DNA from: Acholoe squamosa
Taxonomy: Eukaryota > Annelida > Polychaeta > Phyllodocida > Polynoidae
Direction: 5' to 3'
DNA length: 64,000 nucleotides
Assembly: GCA_949317995.1 (NCBI GenBank)
Contig: OX439037.1
Coordinates: forward strand, 73,719,762 to 73,783,761
A program made the position numbers and the translations under genes. Positions 6,477 to 61,786 of the stretch are shown here, piece after piece; position 1 is the first letter of the stretch, and each line of letters starts with the position of its first letter. Under the pieces are notes generated by a model that saw nothing but the letters and a program-made list of their open reading frames with translations, did no database searches and was not told the DNA's origin.

Positions 6477-6747
6477 TTGGTGGAGAAACCGAGCATCCTA
6501 ACGCAATCACGGATTGAAGGTACGGGAACCCCGTATCTTAACGCAATCATGGATTGAGGACTCGGGAACTGGGCCGATATGATACAGATGACGCTTCGAC
6601 CAATCCGGTACTTGTACCAGTACACCCACTGAGAAGTCAGGAGTGCCCCAACACTGCTTGATAAAGCCTCAACTCTCAGGTAACTGGATTGAGTGGGAAT
6701 GCCGGGTGCTAGTGGATGGTGGTTGAAGCTGATGGGGAGGAGTGTAC

Positions 6748-6994
6748 GGGCAGTAATTCCCCGTACTTGGTGGAGATACCTAGTGGTCCCACCTTGTGAG
6801 GGGGATCTCTAGAGAGCTCGGTACCAGGTAATCACTGCCCCCTAGTGTGTGTATCATACCGATCCAGGTGTAGTTGGAAGGTAGAGAATGTCAGGCCAGG
6901 GGAAGTAGCTCAGAGGTAGAGCATCCGCTTCGAAATTGGAGGGTCCCGGGTTCGAGTCCCGGTTTCTCCAAGACATTTTCCGCTGACCACTACA
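6748..6994 (+). repeat. tRNA-bearing repeat, copy 2 (tRNA-like 6899-6970)
   Basis: Near-identical to 6,230-6,476 over 247 bp without gaps. By eye the differences include one base in the upstream part and one in the anticodon loop (GAAGTTGG to GAAATTGG). The near identity indicates a recent local duplication. Between the copies, TAACGCAATCACGGATTGA and TAACGCAATCATGGATTGA form a further short direct repeat. Confidence 0.75.
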
Positions 6995-42699: not shown

Positions 42700-45430
42700 C
42701 CCCTCATTTACATGAACTATTTTGGATAGTCCTTCTTAATTTTCATTTTAAAAATGTTTAGGTCCTCTATAATAGTGTACTCAGCTTTTAACCTCAATCA
42801 ATGGCACGATATGGCACACTCTTTACCACGATGGTTTTGAAACAGATAAGAGGCACCTTTAACCTCCTACCAACATGTGCTCATTAGGGAATATCTCTAT
42901 AATCAATATATTTGTTGTGTTTAATTAACCAATGTACATAACTTAAAATATGGATACTGGTTCTATCGCAAAGGTTCAGACAATTACTTTTAGAGTGTAA
43001 CTGTAGTGTTGTATACTTAGGGTTTTTCTCAAGTTTAACTTTATATACAATATGTAACGCCTTATGTTGTAACAATTGCAGCTGGTCATTCTCCCCTTTT
43101 CCTAGTCTGTCCCATACATAATCCACATAGTCAAAATGGGTACCATACTCTTGTATATATGTTAAAGCCATATCATTATTCACATAGCATCTCACCCGAA
43201 CCAACTGTGCAGTTTTATGTCTGATTTGCCTAATAGCATTTGCCTTTTGTTCAATAAAAGTTGATGCAGAATCCAATGACAGAGCTAAGTATGTAAAAGT
43301 TTGTACTTCTTCTAATAAAACTCCATTTAGATCAAACTATTGGATGTGAATCATTAACATTATTGAAAATCTGCCATTTTGTTTTCTTCTCATTAATCGT
43401 CAGTCCATTATTAATGCACCAAGCAGCAAGATCTTGCATGTCATCCTCTTTGGGGACTGATAATACTGCATCATCAGCATATAAAGTACATTTAACATTA
43501 TTCATAAATTTTGGCAAACTATTTATAAGTACAGAAAACAAGACAGGACCCATAACAGAGCCTTGGGGGACACCATACTCCACTATTTTTCCTTCAGAAA
43601 GGTTGTTGTTAGCCACTGTTTGTTGCCTCCTATTCATTAGGTAAAATTTGAAAGATTTTAAAGTTTTTCCGCTAAGTGCAAACGCTTGTAATTTTGTAAG
43701 AAGAATTTTGTGTGAAACAGTATCGAATGCATTTTTTTTGTAATCAATATATAGGCTAAATGTAGGATGTCCCCCAATGGTGTTATTGATAATGTTTTCA
43801 AGGTGCTAAGAAATAGCTGACTGTGTAGGGTGACCTTTACGATACCTGTGTTGTACATTTGACAAGAGACTCCTGGTGTCCATGTAAGCCTGTAATCTAG
43901 AACATTATAATTCTTTCTAATATTTTTCCTGGGATTGGTAGAAGATTGGTCGTAGATCAGTAACATCAAAGCTGTTAGCTTTCTTTAGTAATGGGACTAC
44001 AGTGCCTAATTTCCATTTCTGTGGAAAAGTATAAGTCGCTAAGCCCTTATTGTATAATTGTTTGATGAAATCAGGAATACACATGAAGGCATCTTTTAAA
44101 ACAAAAGATTTCATAAGTTTTATGGCAGATGGTTTTCTTATATCAATATTACTTATTAACTTTTTCATCTCACCAAAGTCAATTGGTTCAAGTAGGTTTA
44201 CATTCACTCCTGGGTCACCAAATGGAGGCTAAGTATTATCATCAACTGTGACTACTGGTGCTGGGAGAGCCTGTGCCAATTGCTTGCCTATATTTGAAAA
44301 ACAGTTGTTGATATAATCAGCACAGTTTTCAGATGGTATTAATTGTTTTGTTACTCTGTGCCGTAGCTAAATCAATGTGGAGCTAGTCTTTTTGGGGAGC
44401 AGTTTCTTAATGGCTTCTCAGAATTTTGTGGGATCATTTTTCCTGTATGCAGCTAGATCTTCAATCTTATTTTTAATGCTGTTAAAAATCATGCCTTTAA
44501 CTCTGCACTTATACAAGTTGGCTATCTCCAAGTCATCGGTGGTCATAGACCTATGCACTTTTCTATATATAGCATCTCGCATATTCACCATATCTGCAAT
44601 GTCTGCCGTGAGCCATTCAGGTATATATACCTGTAAATACATTTTTTAACAGGACATAGTTTATCTAAACATATATTGAGATCAGATTCCATTTCTTTCC
44701 AATAGCATCAGGGTTAGGTTTTAAGACCATGTCTTGCCATTTAACACCTAATGACATAATTTGTTATATTTCAGGGCATCATAATTCTTGTATGATCTTG
44801 CATATACACAACGTTTCAAATCTTTGTGCACTCACATTTCAGTAACAAAGCTATAGGTGTCTGACCAGACAAGTAAAAATCAATGGTGCAGGCCTCCCTA
44901 ACATTATGTACATTTGTGTAAAAATGATCTAAAGGTGACCCAGATTGGGGCCTGGTAACATCTTGTATAACCTGACACACTTCAGCATTAGTACAGAACA
45001 TTTCTACTGTAGATTTTTCAACATCCTTTTTGTTAAGTAGGTTGACATTAAAGTCTGTCATGATAATAATCTTTCTATTCTTACTAACATTTGCCATTAT
45101 TTCGAGGAGCTTTTCATATATAGCATTTTTGGCATTATCAGCATCAGGTGGCCTGTAACAGAGGTATAACTTATATTTAATAACATTAATCAGAACATCT
45201 ACACACAGGATTTCATATTCTTCAGCGATGATAGATGAATCCATGTCCACTGTTGCTATGTAAGTATCTTTCATGTATAAGATAAAACCCCCACAGTCTT
45301 TCAGTCAAGCAGGATATCTATCAAACCTAAAGTATTGATAACCAGGTACAAACATATCTATATCCTTATGTGTTGGGTTTAACCAGGTTTTAACAAATCC
45401 TGTTATATCCACAGCACTAACAAGTTTTTG
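42700..45430 (-). mobile_element. degenerate non-LTR retrotransposon (LINE), CR1/Jockey-like
   Basis: Read on the minus strand, broken frames appear in the expected order. The endonuclease C-terminal half comes first (about 45,420-44,816: WLNPTHKDIDMFVPGYQYF, CYRPPDADN, DFNVNLL, SPLDHFYTN). Next is an ORF2 linker (44,649-43,917). Then reverse transcriptase (43,637-43,332) shows YGVPQGSVMGPVLF and YADDAVL, and the thumb and C-terminal region follows (43,276-42,884). The intact protein would copy its own RNA at a nicked chromosomal target. Several stops and frame changes separate the parts and the endonuclease N-terminus is missing, so the copy is 5'-truncated and dead. Boundaries are approximate. 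Confidence 0.85.
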
Positions 45431-45932: not shown

Positions 45933-47280
45933 TGTCATGGTAGAGTTTGGCATGATCAAGTTGTCATATGAGAAATATCATAAGACTAGTGGTATATAGT
46001 GTAATTATCTCAAGGCTCTTATAAATAGTGTTATTTCCAGTTGTCACTGGTTTATTCAGCTTTAGGCAACATGTAAGAAATATCAATCATACAGTAGTTA
46101 GTATGTAGGTAATTTGCACATACAGTAAACATACAGTAATTTATAAAGTACAATGTTCAGTTCCACTCCACCTGTGAGGTAATAATAATACAGTGTCCAG
46201 CATAGTTCTAGGTGGGTTCCCACACCTAGCTCCTGACCTGCTGCTTAGAGGAATAATGTAATAATGAGTAACTTTACCCTCTGGTGGAAGTCTTGAAGAA
46301 GATAGCCTCTGGCCACTAATGGTAGGAAACCAATGCCTGTCTAGCATAGTTTCACCATAGTGCAGTGGTATAGCAGGTAGCAGGAGATGACTGGAGATGT
46401 TACCTCTAGAGCGGTTCTTGGTGATGTGTGTTCCTGGAGGTGCAGACAGGCTATTTGTAGCAAATCTTGGAAAAGCACCTCCAGACTGACTGGAGCCAGC
46501 AGCATCTGCCTAACTCTACAATTGTTTGAGGGGACCCTTTCAAGTGTCACAGGGGGACAAAGGACCCCCATGGACGCCGCTATGGCCCCCATTGTCTTGG
46601 TCGGTTCTGCATCTTTAGACCCTCATATCTCGGCCGTTTATGCTTGTATAACCGCCATTTTGGGCATGCGCGGAGCTGAATGTGCCAAGATTATAATGCC
46701 CGCTGGATAGGCGCATAACTCCCGCCAGTTTGTCTGTAGCTTACTCGGAGGTTGATTCAGTCTCCATGGCGTAACTTCCTTAATACTGGGAGTTCCGCCT
46801 TGATCTTGGGCTCATTCTGACCGTCTAATTATGGGCTTTCCATAGAATTTTTGATATTTGACCTAGGTCGCTCAGGAGCGACGCTAGAGCGACCGGAAGG
46901 TTATGGCGTCGTGCTTATGTAACCCATTGTTCAGTCCTTAGAGTGCTCAGACACTCATGACGGCGTCAGCGGTGCTCAGGCACCCGTGACGGCCGGTTGC
47001 ATTCACTTACAAGTTATTAATTTGTGCATTGAACCATGAGGTCGCACACTGAGACCCTCATTTTTATTATATTGTGCAATGAACCATTAGGTCGGAGCCT
47101 TTGATGTCAGAGAGTGTATGTAACTGACCTGGCTGGTGTGCAGTGGGGCATGAACGCTCTTATGTAAAGTTTGAGCGCTCTTATAGCTCTTAGAACCAAC
47201 CTATGTATTAATTTCATAGATATTTCTTTGATTAATACAAAATATGTTAGAATTTATGGAACAATAAAATGGTATATCAT
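45933..47280 (-). repeat. 3' LTR
   Basis: 1,348 bp, starting TGTCATGG and ending TATATCA(T) on the plus strand, i.e. TG...CA on the coding strand. It matches 60,434-61,781; the one difference I found is G at 46,747 versus A at 61,248. TTTATT at 46,051 gives AATAAA on the element strand near the U5 end. The hairpin-prone GGTCGCTCAGGAGCGAC lies near 46,866. Two copies of TTGTGCANTGAACCATNAGG (47,022 and 47,072) lie in the U3 part. Confidence 0.95.
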
Positions 47281-47286
47281 AGAATA

Positions 47287-47299
47287 CTCCCTCTCCCCC
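47287..47299 (-). other. polypurine tract
   Basis: GGGGGAGAGGGAG on the minus strand, six bases from the inner edge of the 3' LTR. This is the usual position for the plus-strand primer in LTR-element reverse transcription. Confidence 0.75.
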
Positions 47300-47574
47300 G
47301 AAAGAATGCGAAACTCCGTCATTTCGCCGAGGGAATGTACAATTTATACAATTTTTACCTTATTTTGGAGTTATATACTGTTTTGTAAGAGGATTTGAAG
47401 TGATGGGGAGTGCTTCAAATGCAATTTTGTGGTAGAGCTTTGTCAGTATAAACAATTTTCTCCTGGGTATAAGTACATTTCCGAGTTTCTATATCTTACC
47501 ATACCATAGCTTATCTGCTTATGTAACATCAATATTGGGTACAATTTTCCATTTTTATGTACAACATACAATTT

Positions 47575-48140
47575 GGCAAATAGTGTGCAATTTTGGCATT
47601 TAATATTCAATTTAGCGTGCAAATTGAACATAAATGACAATTTCGGTGTGCAAATTTACAATTTCGCGTGTAATTGCGTTCAATTGACAATTTCAGTATG
47701 CAAATATATAATTTTTGCGTACATTTGGCAATTTAAGTGTGCAAATATATAATTTTCGCGTATATTTGGCAATTTTAGTGTGCAAATATATAATTTCGCG
47801 TACATTTGGCAATTTGAGTGTGCAAATATATAATTTTCGCGTATATTTGGCAATTTTAGTGTGCAAATATATAATTTCGCGTGCATTTGGCAATTTTAGT
47901 ATGCAAATATATAATTTTGCGTTCAATTGATAGTTTCTGTATGTACATATATAATTTTGCGTACAGCTTGGATACACATAGAAATGTTGATTTTCTAAAA
48001 ATCTGACTTCAGTGTATGAATTGGGTACAGACATACAGTATAATGTGCAACATATAATTCAAATGTAAATTGGATACAACTTACAATCTAGTGTGCAAAC
48101 ATACAATTTTAGTGTGCAAATTGGGTACAAACGTACAATC
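47575..48140. repeat. 40-41 bp minisatellite in the 3' non-coding part
   Basis: Five near-perfect units run from 47,697 to about 47,900, each like TGTGCAAATATATAATTTTCGCGTATATTTGGCAATTTTAG read in two halves (TGTGCAAATATATAATTTTC, then GCGTATATTTGGCAATTTTA). Degenerate units extend on both sides. Repeat-driven frames arise on both strands and should not be read as genes. Confidence 0.85.
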
Positions 48141-48678
48141 TAGATTACACTATTCAATTTATGGGATTTGAGACAAATTTTTCCGAGGGCCGGAAAAACA
48201 AAGTACTTCATGTACAATAGGCTTGTTTGTCTCTGAGTTACTCATTGATTTTGCTATATGGGTGTATTAATTGGCAATTTCGGCAGTGGGCCGCTGCTTA
48301 ATTGACTTTTCCCCTAGCCTTTTGAGTATGTGTCCCTGAAAGAGATTTATTTGGTGAGTATCTTAAGTAAACATGTTTTATGTCAACAATTTTCTCAACA
48401 ATTTTTTTTTTTTTTTTTTTCATTCATTTTTCCAACAATTTTCTTGGATACCTAAAGTGTGTTACTTTAAGTAAACCTTGGCATAGTATACAAGTGCTAG
48501 TGGGTACAAAAACTGTCTTAGTTATCTACCTGCATTCATGTATATTAACGTTAGATTTGTACAATTTTACAATTTGTAATTTGCAATTTCGCAATTTTGC
48601 GCGTATATGCGCGCACTAATCATTGATTTTTGTGAGAATACCATAGATTTTCATATTATACATCAACAAGTGGCTGTG
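48141..48678. other. AT-rich non-coding part of the element
   Basis: AT-rich spacer with a T-run of about 18 at 48,403-48,420. No supported frame. Confidence 0.4.
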
Positions 48679-48685
48679 TATATAA
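48679..48685 (+). promoter_or_regulatory. TATA box candidate for the antisense gene
   Basis: TATATAA on the plus strand, 264 bp upstream of ATG 48,949 and followed by a T-rich stretch. Transcription would start near 48,710-48,720. This is inferred from sequence and position in an AT-rich region, so chance occurrence is possible. Confidence 0.35.
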
Positions 48686-48948
48686 TTTTTTTTTTTTCTA
48701 ATACTTTGATAATTTCATTGACAGTGGAGGTGTGTCAGGAGTGAGATGTGAGTCTCCTCCCTGGTGTGCTCATGCAGTGGTGGCACTTGAGGTGTTAGGT
48801 GCCAGATTTTGGCATGTGTCTGTGGCAGTGCCTAGCTTGGTGTCAGTGGACAGTTCAGGGTGGGGGGGGGGGTGTGTGTGTCCATTTAAGGAGTGTGTGG
48901 CTGGTATTGGAGCATCAGTTCCTCTCTGGAAGTCACTGCTGTAGTACC

Positions 48949-49428
48949 ATGGCCCACCTACAAGCTCTCTTTGCTCTGCCTGTCCCCCAGGTGATGGAGG
49001 TGGGGAGTCCAGCTAGGGCCCTGGTTGAGCCTAACCAGACCATCCATTATGGGTACATAGTGAGTAATTTCAAAGAGATCATAGAGCATGGTGATGTGAT
49101 GGTCTGTAATTACTCCTGCCATTATTTCCTGGGCTCAGCCTTGCGTCGGGGGGCCACTGTGGCCCTTCTGACTAGGGCCTTGGGCAGTATGGGTTTCTGG
49201 CCCATGGATTATAACCTAGGGCCGCGGGAGCGAGTGCTATGGGATTATTTGTTGGCGGCATCCCTCCTCGATCTTGCGGCATCCGGGGATCCATCCACGG
49301 CTGCCGAGTATGGACTGGGGATGCTGGAGGCCCGGCTCGCTGAGTGGGAGCAGGATCACGGCCATATGTATGGCTCGGACTCGGCCCCGGACTCTCCCAT
49401 TGATGTTGAACCCGAGGATCTGTGGTAG
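48949..49428 (+). CDS. antisense accessory gene of the LTR element, 159 aa
   Basis: The frame starts at ACCATGG (48,949), an ideal animal start context, and ends TAG at 49,428. It runs opposite to gag, pol and env and lies between env and the 3' LTR. The frame is open further upstream to 48,799 but without a good start. The product begins MAHLQALFALPVPQ, has a Tyr/Cys-containing middle (NYSCHYFLG), hydrophobic helical stretches (VLWDYLLAASLLDLAA) and an acidic tail ending EPEDLW. No family is recognised. The coding part is clearly GC-richer than the rest of the element, as expected for a captured or separately constrained gene. The mRNA appears to end at a histone-type stem-loop 48 nt after the stop. 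Confidence 0.65.
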   Translation: MAHLQALFALPVPQVMEVGSPARALVEPNQTIHYGYIVSNFKEIIEHGDVMVCNYSCHYFLGSALRRGATVALLTRALGSMGFWPMDYNLGPRERVLWDYLLAASLLDLAASGDPSTAAEYGLGMLEARLAEWEQDHGHMYGSDSAPDSPIDVEPEDLW

Positions 49429-49475
49429 GATCCCGACTGACTGAAACCTAGGGTGTAAAAACCCGCCATCCCAAA

Positions 49476-49491
49476 GGCCCTTTTCAGGGCC
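49476..49491 (+). terminator. histone-type mRNA 3' stem-loop
   Basis: GGCCCTTTTCAGGGCC forms a 6 bp stem with loop TTTC and matches the animal replication-dependent histone consensus GGCYCTTTTCAGRGCC at every position. It is preceded by CCAAA, also typical. CGAAAGG at 49,503-49,509 sits where the U7-binding downstream element would lie. It works only on the plus strand, the strand of the antisense gene; the complement has loop GAAA. In histone mRNAs this structure binds SLBP and directs cleavage without polyadenylation. Confidence 0.8.
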
Positions 49492-49577
49492 GGCAAATTG
49501 TCCGAAAGGTTCTGAATACTGTCTCTGATGTGTTGTCTCCTGGTGGTGGACTGGGGGCAGCCTAGGCTGTGGGCAGT

Positions 49578-51074
49578 CTAGGCTGTTTCCACAGTCACCG
49601 GGGAGGGCTGGTGGTTTAGAAAATTAGCAATAGTCTGCATGTTTGACCTTGCGGTCTCCTCCTGTTGTTCGTCAATAATTATATCTGTTGTATTTTCCAG
49701 TGCTGTCATGGTCACCGGGCTGGTGCCACAATCATTCTGGAGAAGCATGGAGTAGTACAGTCCTTTGTTTTTAAGGGCTGGTATAGTGCTGAACCTAGTG
49801 CGCCAAGGTAGGTGTATCACCTGAGGGAGGTGATAAGCAAATTCTCCTCTCTGTGTTGTTATAACTGCTGGTCCATTCCAGGTAAATATAGCCTTAGGTA
49901 GTGGGAAGGTTTTAACCACTATATCCTTATAGGTAGGGGCAGCTGCTGATTTAATCTCATCAAATTCATGTGGTATTGGCCTCAAGGGTAGCGCGAAGTT
50001 TGAGTCTCCACAATATATTTTAAAATATATTGTGGGGTTTGTGCGCTTGGCCACATTTTTCTTGCCACAGTGTGTCTGTGCAAATTTCTTAAGGTACTTC
50101 ATTATTCTGTAGGCTGAGTAGATGGTCAGGGTGAATAATATAGCAATTATCAGGGTGTGGGTTTCCTGAATTGTGAGGAAGGGGGTGTGGGTTTCCTCTG
50201 TAGGGGTTAATTTGGTAGGATTCTTATCTGGGAGCAATTTGTGTAGGGGCAGCTCGGTGACTAGTCTGAATGCTTTGGCTGTAGGCAGGTAGGCTACAGT
50301 CCCTCCTAGTCTGTATAATTTGAGTAGTATGTATACTATAAAAATGTGAGCTGATATCCCTAGGATGAGTGCTAAGCTTAGGAAGATTGGATGCTCTGTA
50401 ACTCGACGTAGGTATGATTTCTCGTAGCGCGTTTCCGTTTCCTTATTAAGGTTGGAGGCATCTTTTAATACTGTTTTAGCAAAGGGCTCTAAATTTAGTT
50501 GAGTAATATCATCCATGATTGGATTTTCCTGTAGTTTTTCTAAGGTTCTAGAAAGGTTTACTACTGGGAAATTTGGAAGATTCTCTCTTTCATCTGGTTT
50601 GGTTTCAGAAATTTTGTTAAGTGCTGCCATGAATGGTAAATTAATTGTCTTGAGAATGTAATGAAATGATAAGGTTGAGTTACAGGGCAACCTTGTGTTT
50701 GGAAGAGAAAATTCTCCTACACTGATCGTGCACCCACAGGGTACACCTATGATTGAGTAGGACTGGGCCTTCCGAGTTTCAGACGTTTTACCATGGCAGT
50801 TGATAAAGTAATGGGGTTCATTAGTAGTGACCAGATACTCATCTTCAGAAATGGAAATAGCATGGGTGGTAGGTGCTTGCAGTGGTGAAACTGTAAACTT
50901 GCAATGTTCCTTAATCTGTTGAGCCTGGTTAGTAAAAATGGCTACAGGGCATGTAGGCCTGTGTTTATAGATTCTACCATTTACATCTCTGCATACCTTT
51001 ACTGTAGTACCTTCACATGCCTGCATATCTGCTGAGTCCAATTCGATGAATAATGATTCATCGTAAGAATACTG
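49578..51074 (-). CDS. env: env, C-terminal segment (second frame)
   Basis: The frame is open from 51,074 to TAG 49,578 and lies +1 relative to the upstream env frame, overlapping its last 17 bases. The first in-frame ATG is at 51,026. The ectodomain part has regularly spaced Cys with a PCGC motif and a following LPCN, a pattern I associate with the ectodomain end of F-like envelope proteins. A membrane segment (IFLSLALILGISAHIFIVYI) follows near residue 220 of the frame, and a second hydrophobic segment (LIIAILFTLTIYSAY) near 297. The long tail after it is unusual. Alone it has no signal peptide, so it makes sense only as the continuation of the upstream frame. Confidence 0.7.
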   Translation of the reverse strand, partial: QYSYDESLFIELDSADMQACEGTTVKVCRDVNGRIYKHRPTCPVAIFTNQAQQIKEHCKFTVSPLQAPTTHAISISEDEYLVTTNEPHYFINCHGKTSETRKAQSYSIIGVPCGCTISVGEFSLPNTRLPCNSTLSFHYILKTINLPFMAALNKISETKPDERENLPNFPVVNLSRTLEKLQENPIMDDITQLNLEPFAKTVLKDASNLNKETETRYEKSYLRRVTEHPIFLSLALILGISAHIFIVYILLKLYRLGGTVAYLPTAKAFRLVTELPLHKLLPDKNPTKLTPTEETHTPFLTIQETHTLIIAILFTLTIYSAYRIMKYLKKFAQTHCGKKNVAKRTNPTIYFKIYCGDSNFALPLRPIPHEFDEIKSAAAPTYKDIVVKTFPLPKAIFTWNGPAVITTQRGEFAYHLPQVIHLPWRTRFSTIPALKNKGLYYSMLLQNDCGTSPVTMTALENTTDIIIDEQQEETARSNMQTIANFLNHQPSPVTVETA

Positions 51075-52203
51075 CTAGAAACTCAGTCGTGGTTTGTAGT
51101 TTGGTGACTCCTCTGGTGGGGGTCTCCTGTGTGTCTATAGGCATGGGTGATGTAATCATTTGGTACAGTTTGAAGGTTGAGGTGGTAGATTGAATTATAA
51201 TGTCCAGATGAATATATATATGGTGAGCTGAGTAAGTGTATGAGGTCAGCTTCTGTGAATAATAGAAATCTAAGTCATTAATTGCGACTTGTGCTCCAGG
51301 GTGTGTAATCCTAAGTTTGTTATTAATGTCAACTAGGTATCTAGCGAGGTCTGAGGGTGGTACTATATCAGGGGTTAGGATCCCTGATGATAGCATCCTC
51401 AGGGCTGCATTTGTCCTTTGCAGTGATTGAACTGTATTCATTCTTGCTGCTATGATAATTAATGCATCATTTAATACTTGCATTTTCTCCCTTTGAGTTT
51501 TCTCGTGCCTTGAATATGAGTCGAGTGACCTGGACATGTTAGAGGCCCACAGGTTGACGGTGTCACCTATGGTGTTGATTGTGCTGTCCAGTACCTTCTT
51601 ATCTTGGATGTATGCTTTGACAAACTTATCTTGTCTGTCTGTGATCTTTTCAATGAGATTAGCTGCTTCCTGATCCTGTTTAGCAAATTTTCTTAGTATT
51701 TCATCTATGTTCTTGAGCTGTCCCATTACTTGGTTTACATCTTCTACTGTGGCTAGACCTAGCACACCGCGAAACAGGGGTGCTAGAAAACCCAGTATGG
51801 CCTCTCTTTTGGCCTTGTCCAATGTGTTTATGGGGTTGGATAAGAACAATTTGATGGAGGCTAGTGTTTCATTTATCTCCTTGTCTGCAATTTCCAGCAA
51901 GGTGTCTAGCTCCTTAGCTTGTTGGATAATTTGGCCAGAGGTATGATCTTGTAGAGTAGGAGTGGTCAAATGGAGTATTCTATCCCTTATGGATCCTTGG
52001 GTAACGGGTGCCCGAGGTATCTTGTAGGGAATAGCTAACAACAGTGTTGTGGTTGTATGTCCATTGACCAATGGTTGAGGGCTAGGTTTGAATACTACTC
52101 CTATGTTTTGTCTCACCACAGGTGTATAGCCTGCAGTAAGTGGTTTTATAGTATATAATAACAGCATAGTTAGCAGTATGGGTGAAACTCTCAGTCTCCC
52201 CAT
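51058..52203 (-). CDS. env: env, N-terminal segment, F-like fusion protein
   Basis: Starts at ACCATGG (ATG 52,203), 381 codons to TGA 51,058; an upstream TTG at 52,221 is less likely. A signal peptide is clear (hydrophobic residues 8-18, cut after PLTA at about 24). A basic KAKR site at residues 130-133 is followed by a hydrophobic Gly-rich segment (AILGFLAPLFRGVLGLAT), then a long helical, heptad-like region. This order matches the fusion subunit of baculovirus F and errantivirus Env proteins. The protein would sit in the particle membrane and fuse it with a target cell. The frame ends before any membrane anchor; the anchor lies in the next frame. Confidence 0.75.
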   Translation of the reverse strand: MGRLRVSPILLTMLLLYTIKPLTAGYTPVVRQNIGVVFKPSPQPLVNGHTTTTLLLAIPYKIPRAPVTQGSIRDRILHLTTPTLQDHTSGQIIQQAKELDTLLEIADKEINETLASIKLFLSNPINTLDKAKREAILGFLAPLFRGVLGLATVEDVNQVMGQLKNIDEILRKFAKQDQEAANLIEKITDRQDKFVKAYIQDKKVLDSTINTIGDTVNLWASNMSRSLDSYSRHEKTQREKMQVLNDALIIIAARMNTVQSLQRTNAALRMLSSGILTPDIVPPSDLARYLVDINNKLRITHPGAQVAINDLDFYYSQKLTSYTYSAHHIYIHLDIIIQSTTSTFKLYQMITSPMPIDTQETPTRGVTKLQTTTEFLAVFLR

Positions 52204-53028
52204 GGTGCTTGTGTAAAGCAAGTTTGCTGTTTAAAGTCTTGTCAAATTTGTAGTGATTTGGTGCTGGTAAAGTCTAAGTTTATGGTGTAACACTTTAAAT
52301 GAAGTGGTTCAAACTGTACCTTTGCAAGATTGAGCTGTCTTGGCAATATGTCCGGTGAGTCTATAGAGGTTGACCAGTAAATGGTAAGGTCAGGTTGAAG
52401 GTGAAGTAGGTGTGTTCTTTATCCTAGTGCAGTCTCTCCTAATGGAGAAGTGGGCTGGCTAATTCCCAAGTGGGGTCCTGTAGACTTGTGTTCCAGACTG
52501 CAGCTGGATGAAGACTGATGGTGGGCTATGGTCCACAGTGCTTCTTATGTAGCCTACCCTACCCACATCCATTGTGGGCCTGGTATTGTTTCTCTGGAGA
52601 CAATGCATTAATCTCCAGTGTCTGCTAACTGTGGGGTCTATTGTGTAGTCTGTGTACTGGTAATTAGCTCCTCCTGTCATCCAGGACAGCCATTCATGAC
52701 CGTCTAGACAGTTGTCTGAGGGTAGCTTATAAGGTCAATTGATCTCTATAGACTGCTGTGTTGGCATAGCGCGCTCTTTCATGTGGGGATTAGGCTTTAG
52801 ACACTCCATTGTGTTACCCTTACTCTTCTTAGACTTCATGTCTGCTTTACTTGGGGGGTCCCAGTCTTTGACCCTTTCAGAGGCAATAACCTACTGATAT
52901 ATTTACAAATTTGATTGGCTTTATATACATAGTAATTCATTATCAGTCACACATGTCTTATGTGTGGATGAAGAGAATTTGTAATACATTTTGAAAATCT
53001 TATGTCTTTTGGTATCTCAATCCTGTTT
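52204..53028. other. pol-env spacer
   Basis: About 0.8 kb without a supported frame; the 73-codon minus-strand frame at 52,459-52,680 has no motif. ACTTTAAACAG just upstream of the env ATG (near 52,227) is a possible splice acceptor for an env mRNA. Confidence 0.4.
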
Positions 53029-56000
53029 CTAATTTCTTGAAACTGCACCACACCTAGATGTCTTTCTTAGTATGTGGTGTGCAGGCCTAGGCTTGATAGG
53101 GCCTATGCCTGTGGTTTCTCTTGTAAGGGTGATATCATTTTTGTTCCTTACAATTTTGCTGTAGTATTTGGCCTCATGTGGAATAAGCCTGTGTGCAAAT
53201 TCATTGTTTCTGACAGCCACAACCTTTTTCAGTCTGTCTATGTGCACTGGTCTGGCCACCAATAGATTGGTGTCCAAGTTTTTGAGTTTGGCACTTGTCA
53301 AACTAGGTCTATCTACTACAACATATGGTCCCATAAAAAGGGGTTGAAGTTTCTTACACTCTGTGTTGGTCAGGATTCTTGGTATGTTAAGGTACACCAT
53401 GTCGGTGACCTTGATTTCCTGTGGTGTAAGTTTCTTATCATATCTATCCTTCCTTTCCTTTTGTAGCTTGGCGACCCTTTCTATAGCTTTCCTCCTAGAG
53501 GTATCTTGATTTGTTATCATGTTAGCTACATGGTCTGCTACTGTGGATATGTCTTCCTGTATTCCCAGCCCTAAGTCCATTGGGGTGGCTGGGTTTCTTC
53601 CATGGAGTAGGAAGAAAGGGGTGAATCCTGTGGTTTGGGATTCAGTGTTGTTTAATGCAAAGGTTATGGGTTCAATAAATGAATCCCAATTGTTTTGGTG
53701 CTTTGAGCAGAATGCTCTGAGTGCTGTGCCTATGCTAGCATTGAATCTCTCTACAAGCCCATTTGATTGTGGCCTGTATGGTGAGGAGAATTTATGTTTG
53801 ATCTTGAGGTGTTTAGTTAACTTTGTGAACTTTGCACCTGTATAACATGTCCCATTGTCTGTTTGAAGAGTGGCTGGTGTTCCATGATGACAAATTATAT
53901 TCTTGTAGAACTCTGCTGCTGTTGTCTCAGCTTTTAAGTCAGTAGTAGCCCAAGCTGTTGCATATCTGGTAGCATAATCTATGCAGACTTGTATATGTTT
54001 GTTTCCCCTGGCAGTTGTGGGAAGTGGTCCCACCGCGTCTAGGTTTAGGAACTTCATTGGTGAAGTCATGTACTCTCTCACTGTCATTGGTGTTTTGTGT
54101 GAGTGTACTTGCCTTTTTGCTGTGAGGCATGTGTGGCAGGTGGAAACATATTTTGTTGTGTCTGCTAGCATAGACTTCCAATATACCCTAGGTCGGAGTG
54201 CTGACAGCATCCTACTTGAACCAAGATGGCCGCCAGTAGGTGAGTCATGGAAATACTGTAGTGTACTTGTTACCCATTGCTGTGGTATAACAATTTGAAG
54301 TGGTACAGTATTGGTTTTTCTCCAATTTATGGGGCATATATGGACTAATGTACCATTTACCAAGGTGTATGTCTGGCCTTGGTTGATGATTCTATTTCCT
54401 TGTGCTTTTGGTGCAGGCAAGGTCCCATCCTCAAGATACTGTATGAGGGGTAATAGGTCCTTGTCTTTCCTTTGTTCCAAGCCAAGGTTTGTACCTGAGA
54501 TGGATGTGTCGGGAATCTGATCCAGTAGTTGATTTATATCTAGCACATGTTGTTTTATTCTGTCTCTTTCTTTTTCTTTTTCATCGACTATTGGCCTATC
54601 TTGTGCCTTTTGTTGGGGTGTGTCACTCTTGTTATGGTGTGTAGGCTCCTTTGGAGGGCCTATTCTCGCCTTGATGGGAGTGGCAACCTTTTTCTTTAAA
54701 GGCACAATTTGCTTTTTGTCATTCTTCTTTGTCTCAGAGTTCTTTGATTTAGTAGATGCAGTGTCTTTTGTGACATTTTTCCTGGCAGGTGGGGTTTTGG
54801 TAGGTTTGTTTCCTGTGACCTTTTTCTCATTTAGAATAGTTTGTGATTGTGTGGGGGGTTTTGGTGTGCCCTCCTGAATCATTTCTCTAGTCTTTGAGCG
54901 TGTGGTCATAGGACACAAATGGTTTGATGTTTCCTCTCCCTGCATTGGTTCAAAGAATCTGACTGATTTAGAAGTTGCTTGAGTAATAGCATATATTGTG
55001 TCTTCTGGATCTTCATCATCTGAGTCAGGTGGGGTGAAGGGTGGCTCCTTAGGAGTTACCTTCACTATCTGATTGAGTGATGAGAATTCAATAGGCTCGA
55101 AGTCATTATCTGGAAAGAGTTGTGAGTATTCTCTCTCACAGTGGCAAAACACATAGTGTGTAGATTGCTTCAAGATACCCCTAATGGGTGTCTCTGGCCT
55201 TTCAATGGTGTTGGGTGGATCATCCCTTTTGAATGGTACTTTCTTTGTTACTTTTGCAAACTTGGTTCTACTGGCTGCTCTAACTCTCCTTGGTGGGGGT
55301 GGAGGGTTAGTCATGGGTCCAGAATCTGGGTATTCTCTTCTAGACATAGCATCTGGTGGTGTGTTATCATCACCTTTCACATGTTGGATGGTGAATGAAA
55401 ATTGTTGTATGTCTAGAGCCCATCTGGCCCATCTATGTGTGAGTCCTGTATTGGTTAGCAGTGGGATTAGGGCTGCATGGTCTGTGTATAATTGGAAGTG
55501 TCTAGTCTCTAGATAGTGTCTGAAGTGTAATACTCCATACACTACTCCCAGTAGTTCTCTCTCTGTGGTATTGTAATTTCTCTCATGTTTTGAGAGGGTT
55601 CTACCTGCAAAGGCTACTGGTCTGAGCACTCCTTCATTATCTCTCTGTGAGAGTACAGCTCCTAAACTCACATTGGAAGCATCAGTTGCCAAACTGAACT
55701 CTTTCTCATAGTTTGGATATCTGAGAAGAGCATTGGTACAGAGGGCATGCTTTAATGTTTTGAAAGCATTATCTGCCTCTTCTGTCCAGACAAATGCTTT
55801 GAGATGTGTCTGTAGATCATATAATGGTCTAGCAATTTGGGCATAACCTTTGATAAACTTTTTGAAGTATTGGCATAGGCCTGTGAAGGATCTGACATTT
55901 TTGACTGATTTTGGTGTTGGGAAGGTTTTGATTGACTCCACCTTTGTGGGAGATGGTTGCAGTCCCATGGGTGTGACTCTCATTCCCAAGAAGTCTATTC

Positions 56001-57759
56001 TGTCTATGAAGTATTCACATTTTGATTTCTTCAGTTTGAGTTTACCAACTCTTAGGCTGTTGAACACGTCTTCCAGGTCATGGAAGTGTTGTTCGATTGA
56101 TGGTGATAATACCAATATGTCATCTAGGTATGGTAGGGCACATTTGTACTTGAGTTTGTTCAGAATTAATGTGACTAGATGGCAGAATCCCGCCGGTGCC
56201 GTCGCTAAACCCATCGGCATCCTTTCATAGACATATTTTTTGTCATTTGCTATGAATGCGGTTTTATGCTGATCCTCCTGTCTTATAGGAATTTGAAAAA
56301 ATCCCTGTTGTGCATCTAGCTTACTGAATACTCTTGGTCTGAGTGACCCTATCATGTCTAGAGTGTCATCGGCCCGGGGTGTAGATAAGGCTTGATTTAT
56401 CGTGTTCTGGTTCAAATAACGAAAATCTGTGACGAGCCGATGGCCTCCCGATGATTTTTGTACTAAGAAGGATCTGGAGGCCCAGGGGCCCTCGGCACAT
56501 TCTCTCAGAATGCCCTGTTGTACTAGCCTTTCACACTCTTCCCCTATTGCGGCCTGTTTTTCTGGTGTTTGTCTATATGGTAGGAAATGACATGGTACTG
56601 CCTCAGGTTTTACATGTATTGGGTGTGTATACAGGTGTGTGGCACCAATGTCTCCATCTTTTCCTACGAATACATCATCATACTTGGTCAGCAGTGATTT
56701 TAATCTATCATGCTGATCTTTGGATGTGAGCACAGATTTTGGTGGAACATTCTCTTCCAATTCTGGCTCGAGGTCATGTGCCTCACTATGTATAGCAGCT
56801 ATTTCAGAGAGTCTGATTGAGTTGGGTTCAGGGTCAGCATATGTGGACTCACAGTCTGAGTCTGTGTCACTGAATTGAGTTACGTCCTCAGGCCGTATGG
56901 CTGAGACGGATTGATCAGTGTGTGGGGTAGTGTCTGACACCTGTTGAGGTTTTTCTAAATCAGATTCCTTGACTTCCTGAAATAGAGCTATGATGGCACC
57001 CTTTTTGATTTTATGTGGGCGCCTGCTGGTGTTGAGTAACACTAGGGGATGTTTGTTATTTTCCCTGGGGGTTACTGCTGCCCTTTGAACTAGATATGGG
57101 GCATTGTTGTTTCTTTGGAGGTTATCTACTACTCCAGTTTTGCCTTGCAGTGATTGAGTAGATGTGACCTTACCCAATACTGCAAGTTCAGAGAATGGAG
57201 GGATGGTAAAATCCCTCACTGCCCTAATGGGTTTGAGAATTTGTTCAGGATCAACATTAAATTCAATTTGAGATTTTGTAGTGCTTAAGAAATCTGTGCC
57301 GAGTACAATGGGCTGTGTGAGGTTGGGTATTACCGCAAATTGGTATTGGAATCTGACACCTTGGATTCTAAAGTTCAGCATAGCTGAATGTCTAACATGA
57401 CACACCGATCCATCTGCCAAGTGGATGTTGATTTTAGATTTCCTCAGTTGGATATGGAATCTCTTTTGGAGATCCATGAGGAATGATTGTCTGACACAGG
57501 TGATAGTAGCACCTGTATCAACCAAACATTGTACATCTGAAACATCATATAGATTTGCATTGATACAGCCATTTTGAAGAAGTACAATAGAAAGCTTGGT
57601 ACTCTCACCTGTATCCTTTGATGATGAATCTGGTGGGGTGATGTGTATCACTGATGGACGTCTCTGTCTGTTAGATGGTAGATTTGCACTAGCAATTGTC
57701 TCTGGTTGGATCTTTGTTGATCCTGATTGATTGTTTGTATTTGGGGTGTCACAGTGCAC
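53029..57759 (-). CDS. pol: pol: protease, RT, RNase H, integrase
   Basis: About 1,576 codons counted from 57,759; the frame is open further upstream across the gag stop, so expression is probably by -1 frameshift. Residues: aspartic protease DTGA 81-84; RT with FSKLDAQQGFFQIPI and YLDD 544-547; RNase H with D693, E733, D760, D803; integrase zinc finger H1171, H1178, C1208, C1211; catalytic D1241, D1301, E1337 (35 residues between the last two); a GPY motif near the C-terminus (FMGPYVVVDRP); no chromodomain. All catalytic residues are present, so the enzyme could be active. A basic, Pro/Lys/Thr-rich linker of about 300 residues separates RNase H from integrase, far longer than usual. Confidence 0.95.
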   Translation of the reverse strand: MHCDTPNTNNQSGSTKIQPETIASANLPSNRQRRPSVIHITPPDSSSKDTGESTKLSIVLLQNGCINANLYDVSDVQCLVDTGATITCVRQSFLMDLQKRFHIQLRKSKINIHLADGSVCHVRHSAMLNFRIQGVRFQYQFAVIPNLTQPIVLGTDFLSTTKSQIEFNVDPEQILKPIRAVRDFTIPPFSELAVLGKVTSTQSLQGKTGVVDNLQRNNNAPYLVQRAAVTPRENNKHPLVLLNTSRRPHKIKKGAIIALFQEVKESDLEKPQQVSDTTPHTDQSVSAIRPEDVTQFSDTDSDCESTYADPEPNSIRLSEIAAIHSEAHDLEPELEENVPPKSVLTSKDQHDRLKSLLTKYDDVFVGKDGDIGATHLYTHPIHVKPEAVPCHFLPYRQTPEKQAAIGEECERLVQQGILRECAEGPWASRSFLVQKSSGGHRLVTDFRYLNQNTINQALSTPRADDTLDMIGSLRPRVFSKLDAQQGFFQIPIRQEDQHKTAFIANDKKYVYERMPMGLATAPAGFCHLVTLILNKLKYKCALPYLDDILVLSPSIEQHFHDLEDVFNSLRVGKLKLKKSKCEYFIDRIDFLGMRVTPMGLQPSPTKVESIKTFPTPKSVKNVRSFTGLCQYFKKFIKGYAQIARPLYDLQTHLKAFVWTEEADNAFKTLKHALCTNALLRYPNYEKEFSLATDASNVSLGAVLSQRDNEGVLRPVAFAGRTLSKHERNYNTTERELLGVVYGVLHFRHYLETRHFQLYTDHAALIPLLTNTGLTHRWARWALDIQQFSFTIQHVKGDDNTPPDAMSRREYPDSGPMTNPPPPPRRVRAASRTKFAKVTKKVPFKRDDPPNTIERPETPIRGILKQSTHYVFCHCEREYSQLFPDNDFEPIEFSSLNQIVKVTPKEPPFTPPDSDDEDPEDTIYAITQATSKSVRFFEPMQGEETSNHLCPMTTRSKTREMIQEGTPKPPTQSQTILNEKKVTGNKPTKTPPARKNVTKDTASTKSKNSETKKNDKKQIVPLKKKVATPIKARIGPPKEPTHHNKSDTPQQKAQDRPIVDEKEKERDRIKQHVLDINQLLDQIPDTSISGTNLGLEQRKDKDLLPLIQYLEDGTLPAPKAQGNRIINQGQTYTLVNGTLVHICPINWRKTNTVPLQIVIPQQWVTSTLQYFHDSPTGGHLGSSRMLSALRPRVYWKSMLADTTKYVSTCHTCLTAKRQVHSHKTPMTVREYMTSPMKFLNLDAVGPLPTTARGNKHIQVCIDYATRYATAWATTDLKAETTAAEFYKNIICHHGTPATLQTDNGTCYTGAKFTKLTKHLKIKHKFSSPYRPQSNGLVERFNASIGTALRAFCSKHQNNWDSFIEPITFALNNTESQTTGFTPFFLLHGRNPATPMDLGLGIQEDISTVADHVANMITNQDTSRRKAIERVAKLQKERKDRYDKKLTPQEIKVTDMVYLNIPRILTNTECKKLQPLFMGPYVVVDRPSLTSAKLKNLDTNLLVARPVHIDRLKKVVAVRNNEFAHRLIPHEAKYYSKIVRNKNDITLTRETTGIGPIKPRPAHHILRKTSRCGAVSRN

Positions 57760-57782
57760 TGGCCCATCGGCACTGTGACATC

Positions 57783-59420
57783 CTAGTTTTCCTGGTTCTG
57801 TGGGGTGGTTGAGATGCTTGCCACCAGGAGCTTGGAGATTTGATCCATCACATGAGGTGGTATTTGGGGGTTACTTTGTTGGTTCCCCTGGTAACCTCTT
57901 GTGTCAGGTTTGTAATCCTCCTGGCGTGGGTTGGAACCCTGGTTATATTGACCAGAGTTGCTGTATTGACCGGAGTTGTTGGATCTCTGGTTGTTGTAGG
58001 CGCCATTGTTGTTGTAGGATCCACTGTTGTAGTTCCTATGTGGACTCTGGCCCCTACTGTTGGATCCTTGACTATAGGATCCAGAGTTGTTTGAACCCTG
58101 GCTGTTGTTGTAGGATCCAGAGTTGTTGTAGGATCCAGAGTTGTAGTTCCTATGTGGACTCTGGCTCCTACTGTTGGATCCTTGATTATTATAGGATCTG
58201 CCATTACTTGGGGTTCTGTCTCTCCTATCACTGTATGAAGAGTTACCATTGTTGGAGTTGGAAGAGCTGTTGTCTTTCCTGCTGTTGTGACCCCCCCGGT
58301 TGTTGTTGTTGCCCCCTCTACCTCTACCTCTATTGGATTGGTAGTTGGGGTCATAGTTATTTCCTCTGTATCTACCGGTAGGGTCTCTTGATGCAACCTT
58401 AGCTTCCTGTTGCCTTACATGGGCACTAGACATTAGGTTAACATCTTCATCTGAACTAGTGCTGATTTCCTGGACCTTTTTCTTAGTAGGCTGTGGGTTG
58501 GTTTCTGCATCCCTTACCTTCCTAGATCTCTCTTGGGTCTCAACCTCTAGGGCTAGGTCTAGGGCTTGGTCAAAAGAGTCTATTTTCTTGTTCTCAAGAG
58601 CTATAGAGATCCAGGGCCTCATGCCTTGGGTAAATGCCTTGCTTAGGGTTTCATCATTCTGGCGTTGGGCATTACACACTTTCCTGAGATGGCATGCATA
58701 GTCTAGAACAGGTTCATCTATCTTTTGTGCACGGAGTGCAGTCCTTGAGATTATATTGTCTCGAGTAGCAAAATACTCTTTTAATTTATTCACTACATTG
58801 GTCCATGTCAACATATCAGGTGTGGCACTCTCCCTGAAGGATTCAAACCAAGCTAGTGCTTGTCCTTCGAGGTACTTGGGTAAATATGTTACCATGGTGT
58901 CACTGTCTGTCACTTTGTACTTATCCTTCAGATATTCTGGGAATTTGTGATCAATGAATAATGCTGTTGACATGAGTGGTGATGGGTGTGAAAAGGTTTT
59001 GGGTTTTGTTACCTCATGTATCCTGATCTTTCTGTCGTCCTGCTGTTTATTGTCTATGAGCTTGGTCATGTTGGACACCATGGAGATTATGATGTCATCT
59101 TTGGATCCAGAGGCAGATGGTGTGACAACAGGTGTGATGGCAGGTGTGTGAGGTTGTGGGGTCTGGGATGATACCATCTTCATGAGATCTGCTATCTGTT
59201 GTTGTTGTCTCTCTAGGGACTTCCGCTGATCTTCCATGGCCTTCTGTTGAGCATCTATTGCTGCATTCCTCTCTGCCAGTTGTTGGTTGAGGATCCTCTC
59301 CCTTTCCTCCTGCTGGGACTTGTTGGTCTCTAGGGCAGTAACTGCATCTTGGATGGCCTTCTCATAGGCCCTTATCTTCTCAGCTGTCTGATTAGGTTGG
59401 GGGCCTTCATCGGTGTCCAT
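57783..59420 (-). CDS. gag: gag
   Basis: First ATG at 59,420 gives 545 residues; the frame is open to 59,864 but only from non-ATG codons inside the repeat array. Residues about 12-84 form a Gln/Glu-rich coiled coil. Residues about 150-297 form a Retrotrans_gag capsid domain with LPKYLEGQALAWFES and LKEYFATRDN, and a downstream LRKVCNAQ...DETLSKAFTQGM segment. The C-terminal 200 residues are Asn/Ser/Gly/Tyr/Arg-rich with RGRGRGG and repeated SPHRNYNSGSYNN. There is no CCHC zinc knuckle, so RNA binding probably depends on the RG- and SYG-like tail. The stop TAG at 57,783 is preceded by CAG GAA AAC. Confidence 0.9.
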   Translation of the reverse strand: MDTDEGPQPNQTAEKIRAYEKAIQDAVTALETNKSQQEERERILNQQLAERNAAIDAQQKAMEDQRKSLERQQQQIADLMKMVSSQTPQPHTPAITPVVTPSASGSKDDIIISMVSNMTKLIDNKQQDDRKIRIHEVTKPKTFSHPSPLMSTALFIDHKFPEYLKDKYKVTDSDTMVTYLPKYLEGQALAWFESFRESATPDMLTWTNVVNKLKEYFATRDNIISRTALRAQKIDEPVLDYACHLRKVCNAQRQNDETLSKAFTQGMRPWISIALENKKIDSFDQALDLALEVETQERSRKVRDAETNPQPTKKKVQEISTSSDEDVNLMSSAHVRQQEAKVASRDPTGRYRGNNYDPNYQSNRGRGRGGNNNNRGGHNSRKDNSSSNSNNGNSSYSDRRDRTPSNGRSYNNQGSNSRSQSPHRNYNSGSYNNSGSYNNSQGSNNSGSYSQGSNSRGQSPHRNYNSGSYNNNGAYNNQRSNNSGQYSNSGQYNQGSNPRQEDYKPDTRGYQGNQQSNPQIPPHVMDQISKLLVASISTTPQNQEN

Positions 59421-59796
59421 GATGGAGGGTGTGGGGGAGGTGTCTCTGGAGGAGTGGCTGTCAAAGGCTGGAGCTGGGGTGGAGGATCTAGATGAGGGTG
59501 TGGATCCACCCCCTGAGGCAGATCCTTCTTCCCCTGAGGTAGATAGCGTGAGTTGGGCGTCCTGTAGAGATCCCTGGGAAATGTTGGATCCCTGAGAACT
59601 GGTTGTTCCCTGAGTAGACAGGGTGGGTGGTGTGGGGTCTACTGAGTGTGGGTCTGTTGTATTGGAGGCTGGTTTGTCTCCTGTGGGCCTCCTAGATCTT
59701 GGTGGGAGGGAGACCTCTTCAACAGGCCCCTGACTACGTAAGGTCTTTGTGTGTTGTTCTGCCAGCTTGACTGATAAGGCCTTGATGTGTGTAGTG

Positions 59797-60210
59797 GACC
59801 TCACTGACGTGTGGGAGACCTCACTGACGTGTGGGAGACCTCTCTGACGTGTGGGAGACCTCACTGACGTGTGGGAGACCTCACTGACGTTTGGGAGACC
59901 TCACTGACGTTTGGGAGACCTCACTGACGTTTGGGAGACCTCACTGACGTTTTGGGAGACCTCACTGACGTTTTGGGAGACCTCACTGATATATGAGAGA
60001 TCTTACTGTTGTGTGAGAGATCTCATTGATGTGTGGGAGATCTCACTGATGTGTGGGAGATCTCATTGATGTGTGGGAGATCTCATTGATGTGTGGGAGA
60101 TCTCACTGATGTGTGGGAGATCTCATTGATGTGTGGGGGATCTCACTGATGTGTGGGAGATCTCACTGGTATGTGGGAGATCTCACTGGTATGTGGGAGA
60201 TCTCACTGGT
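59797..60210 (-). repeat. 20 bp tandem array in the 5' leader
   Basis: About 20 units. The gag-proximal set reads TCACTGACGTGTGGGAGACC with TTTGGG variants. The distal set reads TCATTGATGTGTGGGAGATC. The unit length of 20 is not a multiple of three, so it is not under coding constraint, although the gag frame runs through its edge. The array lies between the primer-binding site and gag. The proximal units contain TGACGT, the core of a CREB/ATF half-site. Confidence 0.9.
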
Positions 60211-60415
60211 GACCTTGGTGGGTATGGTGTCAAGGTCAAGGTCACTGGGTGGGTGGAGTGGGTCTAACTGTGTGTATGCGGTACCAGCTTTAATTTACTG
60301 TGTGCATGATTGTTCCCAGTTGCGGTACCAGCTTTAACTTACTGTGTGCATGATTGTTTTTAGTTGTGTTACCAGCTTTAAATTTTATGAGCCTGTGAGG
60401 TATGGGATCTTAGTA
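60211..60415 (-). other. leader between array and primer-binding site
   Basis: Non-coding leader with a direct repeat GGTACCAGCTTTAA...TTACTGTGTGCATGATTGTT at about 60,280-60,315 and 60,324-60,360, and a third partial copy near 60,370. Confidence 0.5.
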
Positions 60416-60430
60416 GGATGTTCTCCACCA
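60416..60430 (-). other. primer-binding site
   Basis: On the element strand TGGTGGAGAACATCC begins three bases inside the 5' LTR. TGG complements the CCA end of a tRNA. The complement TTCTCCACCA equals the last ten bases a CCA-tailed version of the tRNA-like repeat at 6,381-6,452 would have. I do not assign the amino acid. Confidence 0.7.
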
Positions 60431-60433
60431 CTT

Positions 60434-61781
60434 TGTCATGGTAGAGTTTGGCATGATCAAGTTGTCATATGAGAAATATCATAAGACTAGTGGTATATAG
60501 TGTAATTATCTCAAGGCTCTTATAAATAGTGTTATTTCCAGTTGTCACTGGTTTATTCAGCTTTAGGCAACATGTAAGAAATATCAATCATACAGTAGTT
60601 AGTATGTAGGTAATTTGCACATACAGTAAACATACAGTAATTTATAAAGTACAATGTTCAGTTCCACTCCACCTGTGAGGTAATAATAATACAGTGTCCA
60701 GCATAGTTCTAGGTGGGTTCCCACACCTAGCTCCTGACCTGCTGCTTAGAGGAATAATGTAATAATGAGTAACTTTACCCTCTGGTGGAAGTCTTGAAGA
60801 AGATAGCCTCTGGCCACTAATGGTAGGAAACCAATGCCTGTCTAGCATAGTTTCACCATAGTGCAGTGGTATAGCAGGTAGCAGGAGATGACTGGAGATG
60901 TTACCTCTAGAGCGGTTCTTGGTGATGTGTGTTCCTGGAGGTGCAGACAGGCTATTTGTAGCAAATCTTGGAAAAGCACCTCCAGACTGACTGGAGCCAG
61001 CAGCATCTGCCTAACTCTACAATTGTTTGAGGGGACCCTTTCAAGTGTCACAGGGGGACAAAGGACCCCCATGGACGCCGCTATGGCCCCCATTGTCTTG
61101 GTCGGTTCTGCATCTTTAGACCCTCATATCTCGGCCGTTTATGCTTGTATAACCGCCATTTTGGGCATGCGCGGAGCTGAATGTGCCAAGATTATAATGC
61201 CCGCTGGATAGGCGCATAACTCCCGCCAGTTTGTCTGTAGCTTACTCAGAGGTTGATTCAGTCTCCATGGCGTAACTTCCTTAATACTGGGAGTTCCGCC
61301 TTGATCTTGGGCTCATTCTGACCGTCTAATTATGGGCTTTCCATAGAATTTTTGATATTTGACCTAGGTCGCTCAGGAGCGACGCTAGAGCGACCGGAAG
61401 GTTATGGCGTCGTGCTTATGTAACCCATTGTTCAGTCCTTAGAGTGCTCAGACACTCATGACGGCGTCAGCGGTGCTCAGGCACCCGTGACGGCCGGTTG
61501 CATTCACTTACAAGTTATTAATTTGTGCATTGAACCATGAGGTCGCACACTGAGACCCTCATTTTTATTATATTGTGCAATGAACCATTAGGTCGGAGCC
61601 TTTGATGTCAGAGAGTGTATGTAACTGACCTGGCTGGTGTGCAGTGGGGCATGAACGCTCTTATGTAAAGTTTGAGCGCTCTTATAGCTCTTAGAACCAA
61701 CCTATGTATTAATTTCATAGATATTTCTTTGATTAATACAAAATATGTTAGAATTTATGGAACAATAAAATGGTATATCAT
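60434..61781 (-). repeat. 5' LTR
   Basis: 1,348 bp, identical to the left LTR except for A at 61,248 as far as I can see. It should hold the element promoter in its U3 part (the high-coordinate side). The plus-strand frames of about 107 codons inside both LTRs are identical only because the LTRs are. Confidence 0.95.
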
Positions 61782-61786
61782 AACAG
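61782..61786. repeat. target-site duplication AACAG (right)
   Basis: Partner of 45,928-45,932. Removing the element and one copy restores continuous exon sequence across the site. Confidence 0.65.

Follow-up and report, generated by a model that had tools for sequence, protein, structure and literature searches.

A putative antisense gene followed by a histone-type stem–loop in an LTR retrotransposon of the annelid Acholoe squamosa

Results

The LTR element and its sense genes

The window, by which we mean the whole stretch of 64,000 nucleotides that was analysed, contains a minus-strand LTR element of the Ty3/gypsy type, 15.85 kb in length (45933-61782; Table 1). The two LTRs of 1349 bp differ at only 1 of 1349 positions and, judged by this near identity, the element is young. 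Outside both ends of the element the 4 bp ACAG are present as a target-site duplication. A putative primer binding site, TGGTGGAGAACATCC, and a polypurine-like tract, GGGGGAGAGGGAGTATTC, were read by eye. The former we take to be the primer binding site from its position and its TGG start.

The original prediction had described the element as carrying gag, pol and env in this order. Profile searches with Pfam bear this out for gag and pol. The two gag matches exceed the cut-offs barely, and the domains of pol are arranged in the order reverse transcriptase, RNase H, integrase, as is required for the Ty3/gypsy type. An env gene in a single frame was not found; two open reading frames lie here instead, and these were named env-like because of their position downstream of pol. 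Neither of them gave a Pfam family above the cut-off. Part 1 has a hydrophobic start, and in part 2 residues 213-237 are strongly hydrophobic. The env-like gene as a whole (49578-52203) is split over two frames although the copy is otherwise young.

In the protein search a part of pol matched 2371 proteins, of which 120 were listed, whereas for part 2 of the env-like gene no homologue was found at E 0.001. Among the pol matches listed, the nearest are 82, 71 and about 60% identical over the region searched. The listed matches that carry an organism name show 31-44% identity and are mostly from a pseudoscorpion; the other named relatives listed include frogs, fishes, insects, a spider, a choanoflagellate, a charophyte alga and one bacterial bin. 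With the reverse transcriptase, an alignment of 15 pol proteins, part 1 of the env-like gene and gag as queries, no DNA of a related element was found in the IMG/VR or GTDB contigs, and no second copy of the element is present within the 64-kb window.

Several other repeats were observed in the window. An array of units of about 20 bp (59732-60257) is situated just inside the 5′ LTR and overlaps the open frame upstream of the first ATG of gag. Broken pieces resembling a non-LTR retrotransposon, with endonuclease-like and reverse transcriptase-like frames, lie at 42884-45304, about 600 bp off the 3′ LTR. A tRNA-Ser(CGA) gene is duplicated in a 252-nt direct repeat (6225-6476 and 6743-6994, 99% identical).

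Table 1. Features of the LTR element and of the antisense region, in coordinates of the window.
Feature	Position	Strand	Remarks
5′ LTR	60434..61782	-	1349 bp, direct repeat of 45933-47281, 1 mismatch
Putative primer binding site	60416..60430	-	read by eye, 3 nt inside the 5′ LTR
gag ORF	57783..59420	-	545 aa from first ATG; Pfam Ty3_capsid, Retrotrans_gag
pol ORF	53029..57477	-	1482 aa from first ATG; Pfam RVT_1, RT_RNaseH, Integrase_H2C2, rve
env-like ORF, part 1	51058..52203	-	381 aa, placed after pol
env-like ORF, part 2	49578..51026	-	482 aa, frame differs from part 1
GAAAG, weak candidate U7-binding downstream element	49504..49508	+	12 nt past the stem
Histone-type stem–loop	49476..49491	+	6-bp stem, TTTC loop, exact match
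CCAAA 5′ flank	49471..49475	+	agrees with RF00032 consensus ccAAA
Antisense ORF	48949..49428	+	159 aa, between env and 3′ LTR, opposite gag-pol-env
TATA-like box	48679..48686	+	upstream of the antisense gene
Tandem array	47672..47955		units of 40/41 nt; lies between the 3′ LTR and the antisense gene
Polypurine-like tract	47282..47299	-	adjoins the 3′ LTR, read by eye
3′ LTR	45933..47281	-	direct repeat partner of 60434-61782

The antisense reading frame

An antisense frame of 159 codons had been predicted between env and the 3′ LTR, and it was found as described. Its start codon (ATG at 48949) is embedded in ACCATGG, and the frame ends with TAG at 49426-49428. In the program-made list of open reading frames it sits inside a frame of 204 aa that begins with an in-frame ATG at 48814. 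ATGs upstream of 48949 thus exist, one of them in frame, and this was counted against the reading put forward below. The length of the frame by itself is weak evidence for a gene: among 2000 dinucleotide-matched random sequences frames of at least 159 codons were found in 72 and frames of at least 204 codons in 12.

The use of bases at the three codon positions is more telling. Compared with 5000 null sequences, each required to hold an open frame, the 159-codon frame has a chi z of 6.2, which was reached by one of the null sequences, and a G1-G2 z (G at position 1 minus position 2) of 3.9, which was reached by none. In a version of this test that took in all 27 ATG frames of at least 90 aa in the window, the antisense frame scored 6.1 and 4.1, respectively. 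A chi z of 6.0 together with a G1-G2 z of 3 was otherwise attained by only four of the 27 frames, namely pol, part 1 of the env-like gene, gag and a frame overlapping the repeats of gag. Followed in steps of 120-nt windows, the G1-G2 signal sets in at about 48895-48955, dips at about 49135, peaks at 49195-49375 and is lost past the stop codon. The 204-aa reading scores less (chi z 4.5, G1-G2 z 2.7), and a start at 48814 was rejected because the part from 48814 to 48948 is without the codon signature.

Two observations count against a gene. The amino-acid composition of the 159-aa frame is like that of its null (z 1.05; 738 of 5000 as high), and some frames judged not to be genes reach a chi z of 4.5-4.9, for example the antisense frame in the LTRs. 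This plus-strand frame of 107 aa is found in each LTR (46387-46710 and 60888-61211), with chi z values of 4.9 and 4.5, respectively, and without a G1-G2 signal (0.9 and 0.8). In its codon-position signature the 159-codon frame compares with gag, pol and part 1 of the env-like gene, and we therefore judge it to be very probably a real gene. An antisense gene within the LTR element is supported by the anatomy of the element and by the coding signature.

The product of the antisense frame has a mass of 17.5 kDa, a pI of 4.6 and an acidic C-terminal tail. The protein search gave 832 word-sharing candidates, none of them at E 1 or better, and no homologue was detected in phage records, IMG/VR, GTDB contigs, Pfam and PHROGs. 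These missing homologues say little, since part 2 of the env-like gene finds none either. The only match in the PDB, to a coronavirus receptor-binding domain (E 0.069), was taken as chance, and a duplication of another part of the window was dismissed with a best match of E 0.39. The Pfam search, which gave nothing at E 1, likewise showed no bZIP domain. The protein had been predicted not to be a histone; in agreement with this, Pfam gave no match for either the 159-aa or the 204-aa reading. The single-sequence model calculated with AlphaFold2 is unusable (mean pLDDT 43.6). As DNA, the stretch of 838 bp gave no plasmid match.

The TATA-like box upstream of the gene is weak evidence, because TATAWAW occurs 82 times on the plus strand of the window. 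In the tandem array TGCAAATATATAA is present in six of the 40/41-nt units, and two of these six contain the full ATGCAAAT, situated before a TATA-like sequence and in the orientation of the antisense gene. We take ATGCAAAT to be the octamer of histone-type promoters. A histone-type promoter in the array was nevertheless set aside, two units with ATGCAAAT being too few.

The stem–loop downstream of the antisense gene

The stem–loop GGCCCTTTTCAGGGCC is separated from the antisense stop codon by 47 nt and is directly abutted by the CCAAA flank. The consensus GGYYYTTYTNARRRCC is matched only this once when both strands of the window are searched, and the stem is fully paired. Hence an exact animal histone stem–loop preceded by CCAAA, as had been claimed, is indeed present at 49471-49491, and it does follow the stop codon, the spacing being 47 nt and not 48 nt.

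How often such a match is to be expected in both strands depends on what is asked for. For the loose consensus the expectation is 0.03 by shuffling (3 of 100 shuffles) and 0.02 analytically; it falls to 2.6e-3 if full pairing of the stem is required, to 1.0e-4 for the strict GGCYCTTTTCAGRGCC, which reproduces the value of about 1e-4 originally given for the exact consensus, and to 3.4e-5 for CCAAA together with the loose consensus. These small figures are tempered by the fact that the stem–loop came out of a broad scan.

A search with the Rfam histone 3′ UTR model had been proposed as a check, and its outcome was divided. For a stretch of 47 nt RF00032 (histone 3′ stem–loop) is the best family with E 7e-5, the runner-up family having E 1.8; the score of 22.5 bits, on the other hand, does not reach the gathering score of 34. 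Taken over the whole window and all 4227 Rfam families, the E value is 0.095, and two matches of miRNA models in a low-complexity stretch score alike (E 0.072 and 0.09). A blind Rfam search would therefore miss the stem–loop as significant, and it is its place and orientation that put the match above chance. In the alignment to RF00032 the flank, the stem and the loop agree nearly base for base, the downstream part of the model loosely. The folding of the 56-nt antisense context is like that of shuffled sequence (z -0.18), which counts against a histone-type element.

As a control, IMG/VR was searched with the pattern including the flank, CMAAAGGYYCTTTTCAGRRCC. Four contigs were found, all of them versions of one sequence. 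These matches run antisense to a long frame and have an imperfect stem, as would be expected of chance matches; from the look of the frames we take their source to be a single-stranded RNA phage. IMG/VR consists mostly of viruses of microbes. The stem–loop with its flank is rare in the viral contigs searched, and this is a control for chance and not a survey of animal retroelements. Taken together, the figures above support the histone-type stem–loop as a sequence match that goes beyond chance.

Putative signals for 3′ end processing

The histone pre-mRNA is cut by the U7 snRNP 4-5 nt past the stem–loop, and SLBP binds the stem–loop upstream of the downstream element (PMC7026596). A purine element CGAAAGG, 12 nt past the stem, had been proposed as the site of U7 binding. 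We find a candidate that is limited to GAAAG and lies 12 nt past the stem. The chance of a GAAAG starting 8-20 nt past the stem is about 0.006 at the local composition, for a motif chosen after the fact. The first bases past the stem are GGCAA, compared with the ACCCA expected, and this, like the shortness of the downstream element (5 nt), counts against processing of the histone type.

On the plus strand neither AATAAA nor ATTAAA occurs from the stop codon to position 50600 (1172 nt, 0.57 expected), and none follows up to 53000, which we count in favour of the histone-type reading. The antisense gene and the env-like gene are convergent and do not overlap, since the end of the former precedes the end of env at 49578. 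Processing of an antisense RNA by SLBP and U7 would be compatible with the sequence, the candidate for U7 binding being weak, and we regard the odds that the histone-type end of the antisense gene is functional as about even. The gene is not to be classed with the histone messages, since it stays below the gathering score of Rfam and its product is not a histone.

Discussion

Interpretation of the antisense gene and its 3′ end

The reading that we put forward is that an antisense accessory gene lies between env and the 3′ LTR and is ended by histone-type processing through SLBP and U7. Judged from the sequence, we give this reading a probability of roughly one half. The gene would be transcribed from a promoter of its own within 48.6-48.9 kb or by transcription out of the 3′ LTR. 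SLBP would bind the stem–loop of the antisense RNA, and a U7 snRNP paired to GAAAG would cut 4-5 nt past the stem, near GGCAA. The outcome would be a short mRNA without poly(A), whose synthesis and translation would fall mainly in S phase. The acidic product of 17.5 kDa may be a regulator, as has been proposed for other antisense accessory proteins, and the compact U7-type end would halt antisense transcription ahead of env and pol. An expression in S phase may bring a gain for the reverse-transcribed DNA. The reading in its full extent, an animal LTR element with env that makes an antisense protein in S phase from a non-polyadenylated mRNA processed by SLBP and U7, with U7 termination sparing env and pol, is put forward tentatively and falls somewhat short of an even chance.

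We considered three alternatives. First, the antisense gene could be real and its mRNA polyadenylated elsewhere, the hairpin being a GNRA structure of the genomic RNA on the sense strand. A sense hairpin GGCCCU-GAAA-AGGGCC downstream of env could have a role in packaging, export or structure. In favour of it, any UUUC loop reads as GAAA on the opposite strand. The sense hairpin is also the more stable one (-11.3 vs -9.9 kcal/mol), the 56-nt sense context adds pairs to the stem (-18.0 vs -14.1 kcal/mol), and the RF00032 score below the gathering threshold fits this explanation as well. However, the sense context is no more stable than its shuffles (z -0.49), and a GNRA structure leaves without explanation both the CCAAA flank, which follows the histone consensus base for base, and the location of the hairpin 47 nt past a stop codon on the strand of the gene. 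We consider this alternative, the main one, rather unlikely.

Second, the stretch could be a captured fragment of the host, either a gene with a histone-type 3′ end or a histone 3′ end alone, carried along as a functionless passenger. LTR elements are described as capturing genes (PMC7264820), and the composition of the region would agree with a capture: the G+C content is 56% over 48750-49550 and, taken in steps of 250 nt, 0.50-0.60 between 48750 and 49500, compared with 0.31 and 0.44 for the steps on either side. Against this, neither Pfam nor the protein search gave a match that would point to a source in the host; the stretch is not flanked by repeats of at least 60 bp and, placed between env and the tandem array, leaves the end of env undisturbed. 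A captured passenger is improbable on these grounds.

Third, non-coding sequence rich in G+C could by chance contain both an open frame and a hairpin, for which the frequency of frames of this length in random sequences, the window-wide Rfam E value and the selection of the finding from a broad scan can be adduced, but the codon-position signature and the coincidence of gene, orientation, spacing, stem, loop and flank at one place make this alternative improbable.

Comparison with known systems

Antisense accessory genes had been stated to be known from retroviruses and plant LTR elements, and the sources located agree, with HTLV on the one side and Grande, RIRE2 and Retand on the other. In plant LTR elements additional open reading frames are found in antisense between pol and the 3′ LTR; gene23 of Grande is reported to have a promoter upstream of it and a product located in the nucleus, and the fungal element Boty is a case outside plants (all PMC7264820). 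A survey of Retand elements found antisense coding regions to be general, with tandem repeats in this region in about half of the elements (PMC11963269). The introduction of a survey of annelid LTR elements mentions antisense open reading frames (PMC8220671), and the passage on antisense in a paper on rotifers concerns small RNAs (PMC5408684).

Like the elements with an aORF-3R (gene23 of maize Grande, rice RIRE2, Silene Retand), the element described here carries a frame in antisense downstream of pol and ahead of the 3′ LTR, has an extended 3′ internal region containing tandem repeats, and encodes a protein of a kind that there, too, is mostly without known relatives (PMC7264820, PMC11963269). 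The coding frame antisense between env and the 3′ LTR is of the kind by which an aORF-3R is recognised. The element differs in that its antisense gene is separated from pol by an env-like gene, that its pol relatives, among the named matches listed, are mostly animal, and that a histone-type stem–loop is situated 3′ of the gene. In contrast to Retand, the antisense protein has no Pfam match and thus no TRP28 domain.

With HBZ and APH-2 of HTLV the gene shares its position downstream of env. The products of HBZ and APH-2 are regulatory, whereas a regulatory role is only proposed here. The antisense RNA of HTLV starts in the 3′ LTR and is spliced and polyadenylated (PMC3185765); the frame described here needs no splicing, no bZIP was found in its product, and its end looks like that of a histone gene.

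The third system for comparison is the 3′ end of replication-dependent histone mRNAs of animals (RF00032; PMC7026596). Here the likeness consists of the stem, the loop and the 5′ flank, the nearness to the stop codon, the room for a cleavage 4-5 nt past the stem and the purines downstream. The differences are the non-histone protein, a 3′ flank that is not ACCCA, the weak downstream element, the score under the gathering threshold and the location in a mobile element. The original prediction knew of no antisense accessory gene with histone-type processing, and our search likewise found no report of a retroelement gene with a 3′ end of the histone type in the open-licence literature, covered mostly by titles and the beginnings of abstracts.

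According to reviews the function of the antisense accessory genes of LTR elements is unsettled, and we came across little on the way in which such genes end while leaving the sense genes undisturbed. If the proposed reading is true, a gene of a mobile element, outside the histones, would use the histone 3′-end pathway, and its transcript would be a natural non-histone substrate of SLBP and the U7 snRNP. Such a transcript would escape RNA-seq that selects for poly(A), and the element would be coupled to the DNA replication of its host through RNA processing alone.
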